Below, piece after piece: positions 8,094 through 61,767 of a DNA stretch of 64,000 nt. The DNA lies in contig JAEEON010000043.1 of assembly GCA_016284305.1 (NCBI GenBank), forward strand, positions 1 through 64,000, read 5' to 3'. Below the pieces are notes generated by a model. That model made no database searches and had not been told where the DNA came from. It saw nothing but the letters and a program-made list of their open reading frames with translations. Position numbers and translations under genes: made by a program. The DNA comes from Bacteroidales bacterium. GTDB lineage: Bacteria > Bacteroidota > Bacteroidia > Bacteroidales > F082. Positions within the stretch are counted from its first letter, which is position 1. Every line of letters begins with the position of its first letter.

Positions 8094-11000
8094 ATGTTTT
8101 TAATCTTCGATACCGAGACCACTGGTCTTCCGAAAAATGATAACGCCCCCTTAACGGATTTCGACAACTGGCCGCGTTTGGTGCAACTGGCTTGGCAACT
8201 TCACGATGCCAAAGGCAACCTCGTGGAGAACTATAACCTGCTGGTGAAGCCGGACGGTTTCATCATCCCCATCGAAGCCAAAATGGTGCATGGCATCTCA
8301 ACGGAACACGCCACAAAATATGGCTTGCCGCTCCATGAGGTGCTCGACACTTTCCTGAAATCTGCGGAGAAAGCCAAATATTTTGTGGGCCATAATATCG
8401 ACTTCGATCTTAATATCGTAGGTTGTGAGTTCCTTCGTGACCGAGGCTCAAACCCGTTGATGGCCTGGCCTCGGGTGGACACTTGTACCGAGAAGACAGC
8501 CGAATTCTGCAAGCTGCCCGGTGGCAAAGGAGGCAAGTTCAAGTTGCCTAAGCTGAATGAATTCCATGAGATCCTCTTTGGCTCCAGATTCGATTCGGCC
8601 CATAACGCCTCGGCTGACGTACAGGCTACCGCCCGCGTGTTTCTGGAACTCGTCCGTATTGGCGTCCTTGGTCGTAATGAGATGCCCGAAAAGGAACAGT
8701 TCTTTGAGGACTTTCGTGCGGCCAATCCCGATAAGATTCAACCTGCCGACATCGTTATCACAAGCAACTTCGACGAGATTGAAGCGGAAGAGGATAAGCT
8801 GGAAGAACAACGTGAAATGGGTAACTATGTGCCACAGCACTTCACCCATCTCCACGTCCACTCGCATTACTCCATCCTCGACGGCATGTCGAAGGTGCCT
8901 GACCTTGTCGATAAATGCCTTAAGAATGGCATGTACTCCATCGCCCTTACTGACCATGGCAACATGTTTGGTATCAAGGAGTTCGCTGATTATGTCAACA
9001 AGGTCAACGGGAAAGTCAAAGATAAAATAAAGGAGATTGAAAAAGAGAAGAGTCTAATAGAAAAAGACGAAAGCGGTGAGTTGGGAGAAGAAGAAAAAAT
9101 GGCCAAAATTGCCGACCTCAACACTCAACTCACAACACTCAACTCTCAATTTTTCAAGCCGATCTATGGCATCGAGACGTATTGCGCGCCAGTAAGCATC
9201 AACAAACGCGATGGACGTCAAGACCGCGGCTGGCACCTCATCTTATTGGCCAAAAACAAACAAGGTTACCATAGCCTCTGTAAACTCAGCTCCATCGCCT
9301 ATACCGACGGCTTCTATTATAACCCACGCATCGACCATAGCCTTCTTGAGAAATACCATGAAGGCCTGATCTGTTGCTCCGCCTGTCTCGGTGGTGAATT
9401 GCCCCAAAAGATTTTGAACGGCGACATGGTGGGCGCAGCCCAGACCGTGAAATGGTTTAAAGACCTTTTTGGTGATGACTATTATATTGAGTTACAACGT
9501 CATAAAACCGATAAGCCCGGTGGCGACACCTCCGTGTATGAACGCCAGAAAGAAGTTAATAAGGTGCTGATCGACCTTGCTCGTAAAACCAACACGAAAC
9601 TGGTGGCAACCAACGACGTCCACTTCGTGGAAGAGGACCATGCCGAGGCTCACGACCGTCTCATCTGTCTTAGTACCGGAAAAGACCTTGACGATCCCAC
9701 CAGGATGCACTACACCAAACAAGAATGGCTTAAAACCCCAGCAGAGATGGGGGCTATCTTCTCCGATATCCCTGAGGCCCTCGAGAACACACAGGAGATT
9801 GTTGATAAGGTAGAGACCTATAGCATCGACTCCGATCCGCTGATGCCTGAATTTCCCATCCCTGAAGACTTTGGCACCGTGGAAACTTACCGCCAGAAAT
9901 ATACAGAGGAGGATCTTTTCAACGAGTTCACCCGTGACGAGCATGGCAAGGAGATCATGAGCCGTGAGGAAGGGGAGAAGAAGATCAAGAAAATGGGTGG
10001 CTATGACCGACTTTACCGTATCAAGCTCGAAGCGGACTATCTCGCCAAACTCACCTGGGAAGGCGCCAAGATGCGCTATGGCGATCCGCTTACCGATGAG
10101 CAGAAAGAACGCATCATCTTCGAGCTCCATGTGATGAAGACCATGGGTTTCCCAGGCTATTTCTTGATCGTGAGCGACTACATCCGTGCAGCCCGTGAGG
10201 AACTGGGCGTGTCCGTCGGTCCTGGCCGTGGCTCCGCAGCTGGCTCAGTGGTGGCCTATTGCCTTAAGATTACTGACCTCGACCCGCTGAAGTACGACCT
10301 CCTGTTTGAACGTTTCCTTAACCCCGACCGTATCTCGCTTCCCGATATTGACGTGGACTTCGACGACGACGGCCGTGGCCGCGTGCTCGACTGGATCACC
10401 AAGAAATACGGCAAGGAGAAAGTGGCACACATCATCACCTACGGCACCATGGCGGCTAAGTCGGCCATCCAAGACGTGGGTCGCGTGCAGAAGGTGCCGC
10501 TCTCTGAAGTGGCCCGGATCAAGAGTTTCATCCCGGATCGCAGCTTCCCCGACAACATTAAGGATGAGAAAGGTAAGTCGCCCAAAGTGAACCTCAAGAA
10601 CTGTTACAAGTATGTCGATGAGCTCAAGAAGATGGTGGAAGGTCCCGATGAGAATGTCTCCACCATGCTGACCTACGCTCAGGAACTTGAGGATACTAAT
10701 CGGCAGGTGGGCATCCATGCCTGTGGCGTCATCATCGGTGCCTCCGACCTCACTGACGTGGCTCCCGTGGCTACCATCAAAGACAAGGAAACCAACGAAG
10801 ACGTGGTGGTGACCCAATACGATGGTCATGTCATTGAGACCGTGGGCCTCATCAAGATGGACTTCCTGGGACTGAAGACTTTGACGTTGATAAAGGATGC
10901 CTTGAAGAACATCAAGAAGACTCGGGGCATCGACATCGACATCGACCATATCCCCATCGATGACCCTGAGACTTATGCCCTTTATTCCGCCGGCAACACC

Positions 11001-55577: not shown

Positions 55578-56719
55578 TGAGAGAACAAGATCGTAATGAA
55601 CGGGTTGAACGGCGAGAGCGCCGAGGGTTCTTCGGAAGGCTGATTGTGGGCCTTTTGACCTTTCTTGCGCTTATCGGATTGGTGGCGATGGCACTCAGTG
55701 TGTCGAGCAGCTACATCGACCCGATGAAGTTCGTGTGGGCTTCGTTTTTCGGCTTGGCCTTTTGGGAGATCTTGCTTTTCAACGCACTCATCTTAACCCT
55801 TTTGGTGCTGATGTGGTCGCGTAAGGCTTGGATTGCGGTCTTGGCCTTGTTGATTGCCGTGCCGGGCATCTTGAGGTCGTATTCCAACGGAAAGCCCAGC
55901 GAAGGAGGCAATATCCGCATCATGTCATACAATGTGCGCATATTCAAAGATTTATATGATAGTAAGAAGGATGCTTCCGATGTGGCTAATGGCATTGTGA
56001 GCATGGTGCGGGAAAACCATCCCGATGTACTTTGTATCCAGGAATTCGGCTATTTCCTGAGCAAAAAGGGGAGGCCGGAACTCATCAGAATCTTCGGTGA
56101 TTTGACCGAGATGCCTTATCATTATTACCATAAGAAGGCATATTTCGGTGGCAATGTCATCTATTCGAAATATCCTATCAGTGCCATCAGCGACGATACG
56201 CATTTTGGTAAGGAAAACGACTATGGCGCTGTGGCTCAGATCGATGCGGGTAAAAAAGGGAAGTTTCTCGTTGTTTGCTCGCACCTGACCTCGTTTAAGT
56301 TGACTCAAGAGGAGATTTCCGTTCTTTCCGAGCCTGGCAACTCCAAAGAGGCAGTGCAAGAGTACGGGAAGTCGATCGTGGTCAAGCTGAGGAATGCCTA
56401 TCGGCAACGTAGTCTTCAGGTCAACCAGCTGTTGGCCGATATCCCCCATGACGGGCGTGCCATCCTTCTGTGCGGCGATTTCAACGACACCCCGCTGTCT
56501 TACACCTACCATCAGATCAAGAAGGCCGGTTTCATCGATGGCTTTGTGGAGACGGGTAAAGGCATCGGCCATACTTATGCGGGTAAACTACCGCTGCTTC
56601 GTATCGACTATATTTGGTGTAACGACCAAGTCCAGCCTATGAAGTTCAAGAGGCTGCGTTTCAAGGGGTCAGACCATTATCCGGTGATGTTGGATTTCAA
56701 GTTGAGCCATGGAATTTAA
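55577..56719 (+). CDS. Endonuclease/exonuclease/phosphatase family membrane protein
   Basis: 380 residues from ATG 55577; an in-frame start at 55430 lies inside the rhomboid gene and is rejected. Charged N-terminus, two to three membrane helices (about 20-100), then an EEP domain: IRIMSYNVRIF, LCIQEFGYFL, LLCGDFNDTPLSYTY, LRIDYIWCND, GSDHYPVMLDF. Metal-dependent phosphoesterase; substrate unknown. Overlaps uvrB by 11 bases. Confidence 0.9.
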   Translation: MREQDRNERVERRERRGFFGRLIVGLLTFLALIGLVAMALSVSSSYIDPMKFVWASFFGLAFWEILLFNALILTLLVLMWSRKAWIAVLALLIAVPGILRSYSNGKPSEGGNIRIMSYNVRIFKDLYDSKKDASDVANGIVSMVRENHPDVLCIQEFGYFLSKKGRPELIRIFGDLTEMPYHYYHKKAYFGGNVIYSKYPISAISDDTHFGKENDYGAVAQIDAGKKGKFLVVCSHLTSFKLTQEEISVLSEPGNSKEAVQEYGKSIVVKLRNAYRQRSLQVNQLLADIPHDGRAILLCGDFNDTPLSYTYHQIKKAGFIDGFVETGKGIGHTYAGKLPLLRIDYIWCNDQVQPMKFKRLRFKGSDHYPVMLDFKLSHGI

Positions 56720-58715
56720 GTTAGTCTCGGATTTCAAGCCCACGGGTGACCAGCCGGAAGCCATCAAACAGCTTGTTGAAGGGCTCCAGAGGGGCGATGC
56801 TGCCCAGACCTTGCTCGGCGTCACTGGGTCGGGCAAGACTTTCACCATCGCTAATGTCTTGGCCCAAGTCAACCGACCTGCCTTGGTGCTCAGCCATAAC
56901 AAGACGCTTGCGGCTCAGCTCTATGGCGAGTTCAAACAGTTCTTCCCGGAGAATGCCGTGGAGTATTTCGTCTCTTATTACGACTACTATCAGCCAGAGG
57001 CTTTCATCCCTTCGACCAACACCTATATCGAGAAGGACCTCTCCATCAACTCCGACATCGAGAAACTCCGTCTCAGCACCACTACGGCCTTGATGTCGGG
57101 GCGACGTGACATCATCGTGGTGTCGTCGGTGTCGTGCCTCTATGGCATCGGCAACCCCGACGACTTTAGTGAGAACGTCATTTATGTGTCTCGGGGTCAG
57201 CGTCGTAGCCGCGACGACGTGGCCAAGGCTTTGGTCAGCGCTCTCTATAGCCGCAACGAGATCGAGTTTACCCAAGGCAAGTTCCGCATCAAAGGGGAGA
57301 CCCTCGACGTGTTTCCGGCTTATGCCGACATCGCCTATCGCATCGTTTTTTGGGACGACGAGATCGATGCCATCGAGAGCTTCAATCCCGTCACAGGCAG
57401 CCGTATCGAAGAGATTTCTGAACTGACCATCTTCCCTGCCAATATTTTCATCACCTCAAAGGACAAGTTGAACCAGGCTGTTGAAGAGATCCAACAGGAC
57501 ATGTTCAGGCAGACGGAATATTTCCGTGAGATAGGCAAGAACTTGGAAGCCAAACGGTTGGAAGACCGAGTGAACTATGATATCGAGATGATGCGTGAGT
57601 TGGGCTATTGTTCTGGCATCGAGAACTATTCGCGTTATTTCGACGGCAGGAGTCCGGGTACGCGTCCGTTCTGTCTGTTGGACTATTTCCCTGAGGACTT
57701 CATCACCGTCATCGACGAGAGTCATGTCACGGTGCCACAGATCCGTGGGATGCATGGTGGCGACCGTTCGCGCAAGCAGACGTTGGTAGAGTATGGCTTC
57801 CGTTTGCCTTCCGCGCTCGACAACCGTCCGTTGCAGTTCAGCGAGTTCGAGGCGTTGACGGGGCAGAAGATCTTTGTGAGTGCCACCCCCGATGACTACG
57901 AGCTGCAGCAGAGCGAGGGTGTGTATGTAGAGCAGTTGATCCGTCCTACGGGGTTGTTGGATCCCGTCATCGAGGTGAGGCCCAGCGTCAACCAGGTCGA
58001 TGACCTGCTCGAGGAGATCAAGAAGGTGAGGGAGAAGCAGCAGCGAGTGTTGGTGACGACGCTCACGAAGCGCATGGCTGAGGAGCTGAACACCTATCTC
58101 AACAATTTGAAGATCAAGGCACGTTACATCCATTCCGATGTCGATACCTTGGAACGTGTGGAGATCTTGCGAGGCTTGCGTGTCGGCGACTTCGACGTGT
58201 TGGTTGGGGTCAACTTGTTGCGTGAGGGTTTGGACTTGCCCGAGGTGAGTCTGGTGGCCATTTTGGATGCCGACAAGGAGGGTTTCTTACGTTCGGAGCG
58301 CTCGTTGACGCAGACGGCGGGTCGTGCGGCCCGTAACGCAGAGAGCAAGGTCATCATGTATGCCAGCACCATCACCGTGTCGATGCAGCGCACCATCGAC
58401 GAGACCAACCGACGTCGGTCGAAGCAGATCGCTTACAACGAGGCGCATGGCATCGTGCCCAAGACCATTGTGAAGGCCATTGACAGCTCGTTGTCCGAGG
58501 CGACGGGTAGGAGGGGTATCTCCTACACGCAGCAGGAGGAGCGTCCCGTGGCGATGGCTGCTGAGCAGGTTGAATACAAGACCCAGAAGCAGCTCGACAA
58601 GGCCATTTTGGAGGCCAAGAAAAACATGGAGAAGGCCGTCAAGGAGATGGACTTCTTGGCTGCTGCCCAGTATCGCGATGAGATGTTGCGTTTGAAGGCG
58701 ATGGAGGTGGGCTGA
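56709..58715 (+). CDS. uvrB: Excinuclease ABC subunit B
   Basis: 668 residues. Walker A GVTGSGKTFT, damage-probing beta-hairpin YYDYYQPEAFIP, helicase motifs GMHGGDRSRKQTLVEYGFRLPSALDNRPL, SATPDDYEL, GRAARN, and a C-terminal UVR motif (LDKAILEAKKNMEKAVKEMDF) for UvrC binding. Nucleotide excision repair. Last gene of the mutL series. Confidence 0.96.
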   Translation: MEFKLVSDFKPTGDQPEAIKQLVEGLQRGDAAQTLLGVTGSGKTFTIANVLAQVNRPALVLSHNKTLAAQLYGEFKQFFPENAVEYFVSYYDYYQPEAFIPSTNTYIEKDLSINSDIEKLRLSTTTALMSGRRDIIVVSSVSCLYGIGNPDDFSENVIYVSRGQRRSRDDVAKALVSALYSRNEIEFTQGKFRIKGETLDVFPAYADIAYRIVFWDDEIDAIESFNPVTGSRIEEISELTIFPANIFITSKDKLNQAVEEIQQDMFRQTEYFREIGKNLEAKRLEDRVNYDIEMMRELGYCSGIENYSRYFDGRSPGTRPFCLLDYFPEDFITVIDESHVTVPQIRGMHGGDRSRKQTLVEYGFRLPSALDNRPLQFSEFEALTGQKIFVSATPDDYELQQSEGVYVEQLIRPTGLLDPVIEVRPSVNQVDDLLEEIKKVREKQQRVLVTTLTKRMAEELNTYLNNLKIKARYIHSDVDTLERVEILRGLRVGDFDVLVGVNLLREGLDLPEVSLVAILDADKEGFLRSERSLTQTAGRAARNAESKVIMYASTITVSMQRTIDETNRRRSKQIAYNEAHGIVPKTIVKAIDSSLSEATGRRGISYTQQEERPVAMAAEQVEYKTQKQLDKAILEAKKNMEKAVKEMDFLAAAQYRDEMLRLKAMEVG

Positions 58716-58738
58716 CGAAGATTTTTTTTCATTATCCC

Positions 58739-58769
58739 TTGCATATTCCAAAAAAATAACATACTTTTG
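58739..58769 (+). promoter_or_regulatory. Promoter of small RNA 1
   Basis: TTG at 58739-58741, 20 bp, TACTTTTG at 58762-58769. Identical in the second copy (59599-59629). Confidence 0.7.
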
Positions 58770-58774
58770 CAGTC

Positions 58775-58925
58775 AGATAGTGGGCTTGGCCACTTTAAAC
58801 AACCATTAGCCTCGTTTTGGTAAAGTACCTCCAACGTCATTAAGTGACGGCAGACGATGGACGAGGGGGTTAAATCACCTGTGGAAAAAGTATTAAAAAG
58901 GAACGGGGCGACCCGTTTCTTTTTT
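58775..58925 (+). ncRNA. Structured small RNA, copy 1
   Basis: Starts after a full-consensus promoter. The 5' part, through hairpin AGTGG/CCACT and AAACAACCATTA, is identical to copy 2. The variable part forms an outer stem CCTCGT/ACGAGG enclosing CGTCA/TGACG, and is followed by shared bases GCAGAC(G/A)ATGG and GGTT..ATCACC. It ends with AACGGG/CCCGTT and a T-rich tract. About 150 nt, no ORF. It converges with the nuclease gene at 58924-59502, whose stop lies in the terminator. Confidence 0.75.
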
Positions 58926-59502
58926 ATTTAATATTGTCGGTTATCCATTTCTTATCATACACAAGGTCACGATTAAGATAATACCAATGACCATGGTAAT
59001 TTAGGTAAATAGCTCTAAGTCTTTTGGACCAACCCCGTCTTAAACTGAAAGTTAGTTTTGATTTGCTGATTCTTCCAGTGACATCGAGGATTAGGTTGGG
59101 TGCTTGATTCACTCCTTCTGAAAGGTGTGAAATAATGGTTTCTGTTGATGGATTTCCACATGTTTTTATGTCAACGGCAATAGCTTTGAAGGTCTTTTTA
59201 TCGATAAGATAAATATCATTTCTTTTATTGCTCACATCTCTTGTCAAGGATCGGATTTCTTTGATTTGTCCATCGTTTGGAAACACAAGATAGTATCCGT
59301 CGGTTTTGGCCAGTTTTTTTGCTGTTTGGATTTCGGTTTCATTAGGCTTGGCACCTTTCATAATAATAATGTTATCGTGAAGCTCATCAAAGCATTCCTC
59401 TTCCATCATTAATTGAAAGTTGTGTTTCCTGGTTTTCAAAGTCGCTTTGTGTAGGCTTTGTTCCACCAAGATGCTCATTGATCCAAAATCTTTTGCCGAC
59501 AT
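58924..59502 (-). CDS. PD-(D/E)XK nuclease-like protein, copy 1 (CdiA-CT-like)
   Basis: 192 residues from ATG 59502; the earlier TTG lies within the -7 box TATTTTTG. GAKPNETEIQTAKKLAKTDGYYLVFP (Glu), RNDIYLID (Asp) and AVDIKT (DxK) follow the PD-(D/E)XK pattern of CdiA C-terminal tRNase-type toxins, with VNQAPNLILDV afterwards as in that group. The first 140 residues are nearly identical to the copy at 59791-60366, the last 50 differ. No signal, no immunity gene; a small RNA is encoded convergently at its 3' end. Toxicity is inferred. Confidence 0.75.
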   Translation of the reverse strand: MSAKDFGSMSILVEQSLHKATLKTRKHNFQLMMEEECFDELHDNIIIMKGAKPNETEIQTAKKLAKTDGYYLVFPNDGQIKEIRSLTRDVSNKRNDIYLIDKKTFKAIAVDIKTCGNPSTETIISHLSEGVNQAPNLILDVTGRISKSKLTFSLRRGWSKRLRAIYLNYHGHWYYLNRDLVYDKKWITDNIK

Positions 59503-59598
59503 GTTTAAAAATTTCAGCAAAAATAATAAATAGAATTTATATATATAGTATATTTAATTATATTATTGATTATTAAAAAGATTATTTTTCATTATCCC

Positions 59599-59629
59599 TT
59601 GCATATTCCAAAAAAATAACATACTTTTG
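59599..59629 (+). promoter_or_regulatory. Promoter of small RNA 2
   Basis: TTG at 59599-59601, 20 bp, TACTTTTG at 59622-59629, within an 84-base block identical to copy 1. Confidence 0.7.
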
Positions 59630-59634
59630 CAGTC

Positions 59635-59793
59635 AGATAGTGGGCTTGGCCACTTTAAACAACCATTACGTCGGCATTTGGCTATGGAACGCCAACACTT
59701 TTTTAGTGCAGACAATGGGCTGACAGGTTTGATCACCGGAGTTAAAAGTATCTAAAATAGGAGCGATCGAAAAAACGGTCGCTCTTTTTATTA
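59635..59793 (+). ncRNA. Structured small RNA, copy 2
   Basis: Same 5' part as copy 1 to base 59668. The variable part pairs GTCGGC/GCTGAC in place of the CCTCGT/ACGAGG stem of copy 1, with inner TTGGC/GCCAA and CACT/AGTG hairpins. Shared GCAGACAATGG and GGTTTGATCACC follow, then a terminator GAGCGATCG/CGGTCGCTC with T5. The replaced stems keep pairing, which supports a conserved structure. Confidence 0.75.
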
Positions 59794-60366
59794 TAGTAAC
59801 TTATTAAGTTGATTGTTGTCGAAAACTTTTGCTTTATCGAGCAGATGCCAGTGACCATGGTAATTAAGGTATAAGAACTTTAATCTCTTCGACCAACCTC
59901 CTCTCAACCCTTTAATGAGTTTAAGTTTGCTTACTTTCCCAGTAATATCGAGGATTAGGTTGGGTGCTTGATTCACTCCTTCTGAAAGGTGAGAGATAAT
60001 GGTTTCTATTGATGGGTTTCCGCATGTTTTTATGTCAACGGCAATAGCTTTGAAGGTCTTTTTGTCGATAAGATAAATATCATTTCTTTTATTGCTCACA
60101 TTCCTTGTCAAGGATCGGATTTCTTTGATTTGTCCATCGTTTGGAAACACAAGATAGTATTCGTCGGTTTTGGCCAGCTTTTTTGCTGTTTGAATTTCGG
60201 TTTCATTGGGCTTGGCACCTTTCATAATAATGATGTTATCGTGAAGCTTATCAAAGCATTCCTCTTCCATCATTAATTGAAAGGTATGTTTCCTGGTTTT
60301 CAAAGTCGCTTTGTGTAGGCTTTGTTCCACCAAGATGCTCATTGATCCAAAATCTTTTGCCGACAT
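59791..60366 (-). CDS. PD-(D/E)XK nuclease-like protein, copy 2
   Basis: 191 residues from ATG 60366 under TACTTTTG (minus). Same catalytic pattern as copy 1 (ETEIQTAKKLAKTDEYYLVFP, RNDIYLID, AVDIKT). From NLILDITGKVS on the sequence departs from copy 1 (GLRGGWSKRLKFLYLNYHGHW is still alike, the tail is not). Tandem duplicate of the whole RNA-plus-gene unit, period about 860 bases. Confidence 0.75.
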   Translation of the reverse strand: MSAKDFGSMSILVEQSLHKATLKTRKHTFQLMMEEECFDKLHDNIIIMKGAKPNETEIQTAKKLAKTDEYYLVFPNDGQIKEIRSLTRNVSNKRNDIYLIDKKTFKAIAVDIKTCGNPSIETIISHLSEGVNQAPNLILDITGKVSKLKLIKGLRGGWSKRLKFLYLNYHGHWHLLDKAKVFDNNQLNKLL

Positions 60367-60514
60367 GTTTAAAAATTTCAGCAAAAGTAATAAAACAAAT
60401 TATATATATGATATATTTGTTTGTATTATATTGAATTATTATAATGATTAAAATGTGGTTTTCAATAATAGATATAATATTTAATCTTTATTGTGTAAAT
60501 AATATAATTAATAT

Positions 60515-60522
60515 TATATTTG
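60515..60522 (+). promoter_or_regulatory. -7 box TATATTTG
   Basis: Lies downstream of several in-frame starts and 38 bases before ATG 60561, and therefore fixes that start for the next gene. Confidence 0.55.
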
Positions 60523-60560
60523 CAACTCGAAAAACAACAATTAATCTAAACAACAGTGTT

Positions 60561-61148
60561 ATGGATGCGATAATTACCTTTTTGGTTGAGCGATGGCCGT
60601 TATTCGCCATCGTACTTATTTCTGTGGTAGTAACAGTGATTATTTGCAAGTGGTATTTCAACCGTTTTGTGCCTACGGAGAAGAATGTGGTCAGCAACCA
60701 GAAACGAATTGATGAGTTGCCTTGTGCGAAACACGAGGAAGAGATATCGTCTATTCGAGCTTATTTATTGGTGAAATACCCCAAGGCGTTTGGGAGTTAT
60801 GCGCAGAAGAAGAGTCCACGTTGTCTTAACGAAGAAGGGGAGAAGCTTTTTGAGGAGATTGGGGGAGCGGGATTCCTTGCGGCCCATGGCGCCATGTTAA
60901 TGGAGAGGATGGAGCAGAAAAAACCGAAGACTCCTCTTGACGTGGAGTTTTTTGCGCTTGACACGTTATATGGGATGTTGGGAGATGACATGTTCAACGA
61001 CATTAAGCGATGGGTATATGACAGTCCTATGCGAAGGCTGATCCTTGATGGAGTAGAAAAGGATTACGAGGTGACGATGGGGGATGTGTGTTTCGTGTTG
61101 AGTATTCCTTTACGTGACCTGTATTTGGAGATGCATAGCATTAATTAA
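60561..61148 (+). CDS. Membrane-anchored hypothetical protein
   Basis: 195 residues. One N-terminal membrane helix (WPLFAIVLISVVVTVIICKW), then a cytoplasmic helical domain (HEEEISSIRAYLLVKYPKAFGSY; LNEEGEKLFEEIGGAGFLAAHG). No family recognised. Located directly after the RNA/nuclease cassettes and before an IS remnant; association with the cassettes is possible but unsupported. Confidence 0.75.
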   Translation: MDAIITFLVERWPLFAIVLISVVVTVIICKWYFNRFVPTEKNVVSNQKRIDELPCAKHEEEISSIRAYLLVKYPKAFGSYAQKKSPRCLNEEGEKLFEEIGGAGFLAAHGAMLMERMEQKKPKTPLDVEFFALDTLYGMLGDDMFNDIKRWVYDSPMRRLILDGVEKDYEVTMGDVCFVLSIPLRDLYLEMHSIN

Positions 61149-61419
61149 AGTTTTGTTTTTTTTATTCCGGTTGACTTAGAGAGAGTTGCGTTATTGTGGT
61201 CAAAGATTTCGATCAAAACAGAGCGCTGGACTTGATTTTTTCTCTGTTGCTCTCAAAAAAGTAGACACGGGAAGGTGAAAAAAACTGAAAGACGTACCTT
61301 TGTAGCCGTTAAGGATGTTCGTCTTGGAGAGAGTGGCGGTTGACCACGAACGGAAAGCCAACATCCTTAACGGACCAAGGAGTCGGACAGTCCAAGTTCA
61401 CCGGAAAGGAGAATCTACC

Positions 61420-61767
61420 ATGTCAAAACACTTGAACCCGCTTGAGAAAGAGTTCCTAATCCGCCGCTACCGGAGCAACCAGAGGATCTCCATCCAGGAC
61501 TTCTGCAAGAACAACGGCATCACGGAGACGTCGCTCAGGAAATGGATGAAGCAGTATGACGAGGGCGGACTTGAAGGCCTTGCCCGCGCAAGTTCGGAAA
61601 CCAAGGAGGTGCTCCCGGAAGGCGTTGACCGGACGGAAGAATCCTACAAACGCGAGATCCTCAGACTCCGCATTGAGAACGAACGGCTAAAAAAAAGCTA
61701 TGCCGTTCAGACGAACGAGGATGGGGAACGGGAGTATGTTCGTTTAAAGCCGAAGAGTTCGAAATAG
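61420..61767 (+). CDS. IS3-family OrfA
   Basis: 115 residues from ATG 61420. HTH region (FLIRRYRSNQRISIQDFCKNNG, TETSLRKWMKQYDEGGLEGL) and a leucine-zipper-like helix (REILRLRIENERLKK). An A8 run at about 61689-61696 is a slippery site: a -1 shift there continues openly into orfB (LSRDNPVKDICELMGVSRAG), the usual way IS3 elements make OrfAB. Non-functional without the rest of orfB. Confidence 0.8.
   Translation: MSKHLNPLEKEFLIRRYRSNQRISIQDFCKNNGITETSLRKWMKQYDEGGLEGLARASSETKEVLPEGVDRTEESYKREILRLRIENERLKKSYAVQTNEDGEREYVRLKPKSSK

Follow-up and report, generated by a model that had tools for sequence, protein, structure and literature searches.

A convergent structured RNA as candidate immunity factor of a phage-capsid-derived nuclease toxin in Bacteroidales

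Why would a small RNA gene face a nuclease gene and end at its stop codon, twice in a row? The question is raised by a duplicated cassette in a 64,000-nucleotide (nt) stretch of DNA, hereafter the window, from a gut-type bacterium (Bacteroidales bacterium, GCA_016284305.1, contig JAEEON010000043.1). Each of its two units combines a candidate structured RNA on the + strand with a CdiA-CT-like nuclease gene on the - strand. From sequence comparisons, we propose with a probability of roughly 0.6 that the convergent RNA guards against a phage-capsid-derived nuclease toxin and that the two together make up an orphan cassette of toxin and immunity factor, displaced from a phage polymorphic toxin.

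The two tandem units are direct repeats spaced 860 to 864 bp apart. In each, the + strand candidate transcript converges on the nuclease gene, whose stop codon (58924-58926 and 59791-59793) falls within or directly past the T-run of the RNA terminator. Tandem units of about 860 bp, a plus-strand RNA with a promoter and an intrinsic terminator, and an RNA end at the nuclease 3′ end had all been claimed in the original prediction, made from the letters of the window, and all are borne out in both units; TTG/TAnnTTTG is the Bacteroidetes promoter consensus. The open reading frame (ORF) listing opens both nucleases at an upstream TTG; we use the ATG starts at 59502 and 60366. The features are as follows (aa, amino acids).

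58718..59577, no strand: unit 1 (repeat copy 1), from direct repeats and identity profile
58739..58769, + strand: RNA 1 promoter, read from the sequence; TTG 58739-58741, 20-nt spacer, box TACTTTTG 58762-58769
58771..58925, + strand: candidate RNA 1 (type A), start approximate; P1 58779-58783/58790-58794; S2 58810-58815/58861-58866; motif GCAGACGATGG 58850-58860; terminator hairpin 58895-58924
58924..59502, - strand: nuclease 1, 192 aa, CdiA-CT-like PD-(D/E)XK domain
59578..60440, no strand: unit 2 (repeat copy 2), from direct repeats and identity profile
59599..59629, + strand: RNA 2 promoter, identical letters 860 bp further; box TACTTTTG 59622-59629
59631..59791, + strand: candidate RNA 2 (type B), start approximate; P1 59639-59643/59650-59654; S2 59670-59675/59719-59724; motif GCAGACAATGG 59708-59718; terminator 59759-59786
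59791..60366, - strand: nuclease 2, 191 aa; paralogous to nuclease 1, C-terminus diverged

Each cassette holds one RNA copy without tandem repeats in the RNA, and the repeat in the window is that of the whole cassette. The promoter and RNA 5′ end (91 bp) are 99% identical between the units. In 40-column steps, identity is 97 to 100% across the promoter/P1 side, 45 to 85% from about 58800 to 59085, and 88 to 100% over the remaining nuclease. The low-identity stretch comprises both the RNA core and the last ∼53 nuclease codons, which therefore differ together: by this computation, RNA core and toxin C-terminus diverge jointly as one block.

What does the RNA face? The nuclease fold matches a solved CdiA-CT tRNase, in line with the predicted resemblance to CdiA C-terminal tRNases; the Pfam profile CdiA_C (PF18451), proposed earlier as a check, has 0 matches above its cut-off in the window nucleases. 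It is touched by 7 of 44 relatives (best E 0.0032), with the protein of locus L045 nearest the cut-off (26.1 versus 26.6 bits). Besides the window's genome, search A1 of 393 genomes of the order found one diverged full-length relative, 40% identical (genome G366, locus L035); search A5 of the order added a weak 51-residue match in G047, and among 395 in the class search there was no carrier other than the window's own genome. The L035 nuclease as query gave 49 relatives, some with a longer N-terminus. Viral contigs were matched with A3 and A4, with none found by A1 or the single L035 protein; plasmid and phage records gave no match in tblastn with the window or L035 nuclease.

Three viral contigs, L043, L044, and L046, encode the nuclease as the C-terminal end of proteins of 539 to 573 aa whose N-terminal parts match PHROG head-morphogenesis families (best E 1e-45 to 2e-40). 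The N-terminal carrier of these three and of P0070 also matches the PHROG that takes its name from the Bacteroides toxin Bxa, and a portal gene precedes the head-protein nuclease in L044 and L046. Pfam Phage_Mu_F stays below its cut-off for the carrier proteins. The 505-aa L045 protein has no PHROG match; a preceding portal gene (E 1.3e-8), the one basis for this placement, suggests that it occupies the same genomic place as the other carriers. By these computed matches, the nuclease is a C-terminal domain of phage head proteins, which the original prediction had overlooked along with the same layout at other toxins. The window copies lack the carrier part. Orphan modules are known from other polymorphic toxins, and three shorter ORFs that follow the head protein in L046 resemble them: each starts with a repeat of the head-protein tail and ends in an LPD3 or CdiA_C-like domain, the weaker LPD3 and CdiA_C below cut-off. 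The window units likewise look like orphans settled in the chromosome, as do truncated copies in G088 (L010; the rumen Bacteroidales metagenome-assembled genome RUI549) and G069 (L013). At L010:6744 and L013:2088, a nuclease remnant and RNA lie upstream of genes that share a signal-peptide start (MFKKTLLFMLLMTLLAPWA), perhaps a common insertion hot spot.

Does the RNA belong to the nuclease? We read nine nuclease loci: the two in the window, L010, L013, L035, and L043 to L046. At 9/9, an opposite-strand hairpin-plus-T terminator ends at the toxin stop, downstream of the toxin, and the linkage persists between phages and chromosomes at protein identities down to about 40%. Computed across these loci, the convergent RNA-nuclease linkage is conserved. 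Within the genus, nuclease sequence occurs in 3 of 99 genomes, truncated in two of them, and an RNA model built from five RNAs (R1) matches 4 of 99: the three nuclease carriers and G116, which has a truncated RNA remnant and no nuclease found. The RNA thus follows the nuclease in the genus; wide occurrence without it, or identity with an Rfam housekeeping RNA, would have told against the original prediction. R1 also matches the L046 RNA (E 0.048). Other scores are weak and are reported because of position only: R1 places L036 and L044b at the predicted site at chance-level E values of 0.58 and 3.3 (2.3 at the other L036 site), and the best outside matches of R2, built from three RNAs, are G069 (E 0.35) and the window (E 0.56). 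The exact pattern of the RNA 5′ end was found in 0 viral contigs, and a loose pattern matched at least 120 stretches, among which 80 searched with R1 and 52 with R2 gave best E values of 3.8 and 5.1, the level of chance. With the L010 RNA as DNA query, 17 of 99 genomes of the genus gave matches, 13 by promoter letters only. At L044:3987-4267 (- strand), a single head-protein nuclease is followed by two tandem RNAs of different subtypes, which looks like the retention of an older immunity RNA.

Is the RNA structured? The region 58600-60700, both strands, contains 6 terminator-like sites versus 1.5 ± 1.2 in shuffles. Single-RNA folding is weakly better than in shuffles (z = -1.88 and -2.11 for the window RNAs), and the case for the RNA is carried by comparative alignment instead. 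In an alignment of five RNAs with 25 proposed pairs, 94.4% of cells are paired, and both sides have changed in 10 of the 25 pairs, a number equalled in 1 of 500 shuffles; the paired percentage or the covariation score was reached by none of the 500, and sliding the structure along the alignment lowers pairing to 27 to 63%. One of the five measures, further pair types, is at the shuffle level (304/500), and misregistration of two sequences lowers the pairing of one inner hairpin to 70% of cells. By these alignment statistics, the predicted structure is conserved, which supports the earlier claim of a structured RNA linked to the nuclease. The fold consists of the P1 hairpin, a long-range helix (S2), and inner hairpins, and the variable parts are mostly paired helices. 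S2 pairs at 5/5 or 6/6 positions across seven different sequences, and in 9 of 10 RNAs the motif CAGRCRAUGG directly abuts an S2 strand with no gap. The P1 loop could pair downstream (UGG with CCA; CGG with CCG in L044a); since this pairing varies at one pair only, a pseudoknot is likely, short of proof. In the window RNAs, CCAUU could alternatively pair with RAUGG, in competition with this pseudoknot. At threshold, Rfam has no family at either RNA, its sole window matches being two tRNAs. The pistol ribozyme (RF02679) was rejected: the RNAs score 29.6 and 24.3 bits, below the gathering threshold of 34.5, with a sub-threshold resemblance of the RNA 5′ end to the pistol 5′ half and most of the model's 3′ half skipped; L035 and L043 to L046 have no gathering match either.

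If the RNA is the immunity factor, other toxins of this kind should carry one. L177, a head protein ending in LPD3, is 58% identical to the LPD3 orphan of L046, and both have closely similar RNA candidates past the stop codon. A convergent hairpin-terminator RNA also accompanies both L175 and its 51% identical counterpart, the CdiA_C orphan of L046 (fold z -6.5 and -5.2, terminator included); the L046 RNA at 9065-9126 has a fold z of +0.24. L178 contains two convergent-RNA cassettes. An opposing TAnnTTTG box lies 40 to 200 nt past 15 of 17 toxin stops, the one of L044 inside its RNA, versus 10 of 94 control stops. A second set was picked by protein family alone: LPD3 (PF18798) occurs in 71 of 99 genus genomes at E 0.001 and above cut-off in 53. 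Among the best 30 loci, 29 were readable and 25 had the opposing box, versus 10 of 80 other ORFs there. Three recurrent RNA cores were found by exact pattern at 8, 7, and 7 of these best 30 loci; one core, in nine sequences, has a covarying helix with both sides changed in 5 of 19 pairs, and Rfam at threshold names none of the cores in the 14 loci searched. Across L181 to L210, most LPD3 genes are opposed by candidate RNAs, which fall into three or more recurrent types; an RT-3 RNA (RF03068, 122.7 bits) lies near an LPD3 gene at L210:941-1090 (- strand).

In L178, a candidate RNA (1276-1400, - strand) facing a 214-aa toxin-like ORF has a T-arm, GCGGGTTCAAATCCTGC, and D-loop letters, AGTTGGTAG. 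The T-arm is perfect, and its motif is expected about 8e-4 times per RNA, as judged post hoc; ARAGORN finds 0 tRNA genes there, the Rfam tRNA model has no match at E 1, and the fold z is -0.23. The T-arm and D-loop letters, as sole support, hint that this RNA might mimic the substrate tRNA of its toxin, a lead. For the window RNA, no tRNA likeness was established.

How might the cassette work? Each unit would be an orphan cassette displaced from a phage polymorphic toxin, its protein being the C-terminal tRNase-type nuclease domain that in phages would ride on a MuF-type head protein. The toxin domain would arrive on the head protein or be made from the orphan gene and, judging by its fold, would attack tRNA. 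The RNA, probably pseudoknotted, would be transcribed independently from its own promoter, bind the nuclease directly, and block its activity, perhaps as a substrate mimic, and cells or lysogens with the cassette would survive the toxin. Its opposite orientation would allow transcription of the RNA in a lysogen even when the late head-gene operon is off. Production of the RNA, a toxic tRNase activity of the protein, and its neutralisation by direct binding of the RNA are inferences. The view of the RNA as immunity draws on its position in the usual place of an immunity gene, its accompanying the toxin from phage to chromosome, its differing between toxin families, and its codivergence with the toxin C-terminus. 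RNA protection of a toxin, among the interpretations in the original prediction, is also our best reading; nothing seen points to an RNA-guided nuclease, and the variable RNA parts are mostly paired helices.

Several observations weigh against RNA immunity. Phage polymorphic toxins, including Bxa with its related carrier N-terminus, have been published with protein immunity (PMC11699363). In L010 and L013, the RNA persists beside a truncated nuclease; it might serve some separate purpose or just take longer to decay. A nuclease fragment in G491 (L042), lacking the C-terminal half, has no R1 or R2 match. The L045 RNA lacks CAGRCRAUGG and matches neither model, L045 and L046 lack the exact TAnnTTTG box, and the L044 box counted sits inside its RNA. 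The Fisher value for opposing boxes at the LPD3 loci (9e-13) does not stand for independent events, since these loci are mutually related. Finally, the W2 RNA pairs with the 5′ end of its own mRNA at -55.2 versus -42.0 ± 4.9 in shuffles.

This last value would fit a type I-like regulator that base-pairs with the toxin mRNA, as antisense or otherwise, and also with read-through late head-gene transcripts; a read-through toxin transcript would hold the full complement of the convergent RNA. W1 gives no such signal (-40.0 versus -41.4 ± 5.0), however, whole mRNAs lie just over one standard deviation from shuffles, and what is kept across phages is paired helices and loop motifs, not unpaired complementarity; we consider this explanation unlikely. 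Similarly doubtful is an ordinary neighbourhood, in which an unrelated small RNA with a common bidirectional terminator travels with the toxin gene through adjacency. Convergent genes with a common terminator are frequent, and the RNA does remain next to truncated nucleases, but mere adjacency sits poorly with a linkage kept from phage to chromosome down to about 40% protein identity, with opposing boxes at just 10/94 and 10/80 control ORF stops, and with other RNAs at the same place beside toxins of other families.

Much less probable than either is a small immunity protein whose gene would cross the RNA region on the toxin strand. This stretch does hold open frames, with 105 codons at 58523-58840 (unit 1), 57 in unit 2, 57 in L010, 90 in L013, and 30 to 43 in L035, L044, and L045. 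The scan lists no frame of at least 30 codons for L043 or L046, however; sequence changes preserve helix pairing, and the best stretch common to the window frames faces the P1 region, where the DNA is nearly identical anyway. After the toxin gene, no small immunity ORF has a frame common to all loci, and no protein immunity gene was found, in agreement with the original prediction.

In the window, uvrB (56709-58715) lies on one side of the cassette pair. On the other flank (60561-61767) lies a 195-aa ORF, hydrophobic at its N-terminus, that matches no Pfam family above cut-off; a transposase helix-turn-helix gene (HTH_Tnp_1) comes next.

How does RNA immunity of a head-protein toxin relate to known systems? 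In type III toxin-antitoxins, the RNA precedes the toxin gene on the same strand, whereas here it is on the opposite strand and downstream at all nine loci. Type III systems such as ToxIN (PMC8860590) are alike in the proposed mode, direct inhibition of a nuclease toxin by a structured RNA, and differ from the single, repeat-free RNA copy, its place, and the toxin fold seen here. AbiF/RCd22 of a Clostridioides difficile prophage (PMC12373285) is likewise a phage-encoded toxin neutralised by an RNA of ∼100 to 130 nt with its own promoter and terminator, but RCd22 lies upstream of its toxin gene, and AbiF belongs to the Abi_2/Cas13-ancestor toxins. In temperate phages, MuF polymorphic toxins (PMC5576092) resemble L043, L044, and L046 in the toxin domain that ends a phage head protein; here, a convergent RNA occupies the corresponding place. 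Bxa of Bacteroides (PMC11699363) has a carrier N-terminus like those of L043, L044, L046, and P0070, but it is an ADP-ribosyltransferase with two immunity proteins, Bsi and BAH, unlike the window nuclease. The CdiA-CT tRNase (PDB 4g6v; PMC9086364) is 16% identical, has a different carrier, and comes with an immunity protein. Within open-licence PMC text, RNA immunity for polymorphic toxins was not found described. The cassette unites two known kinds, RNA-neutralised toxins and phage head-protein toxins, in a combination found undescribed in that text, because it would work like type III and AbiF-RCd22 systems, has the carrier of phage head toxins, and lacks the expected immunity ORF.

We give even odds to a wider proposal: that in Bacteroidales phages and their hosts, toxin-specific structured RNAs replace proteins as immunity to head toxins, with a number of unrelated RNA families serving different toxin folds and some of the RNAs perhaps mimicking the attacked tRNA, and that such cassettes accumulate in chromosomes as orphan modules. 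Polymorphic toxins have been described with protein immunity. If our explanation is true, RNA can serve as an immunity factor, and some toxins seemingly without an immunity gene have one that is invisible to protein-based surveys. It would also tie phage head toxins to RNA antitoxins, offer new RNA-protein inhibitor pairs with jointly changing alleles, and account for many convergent small RNA candidates in Bacteroidales genomes.
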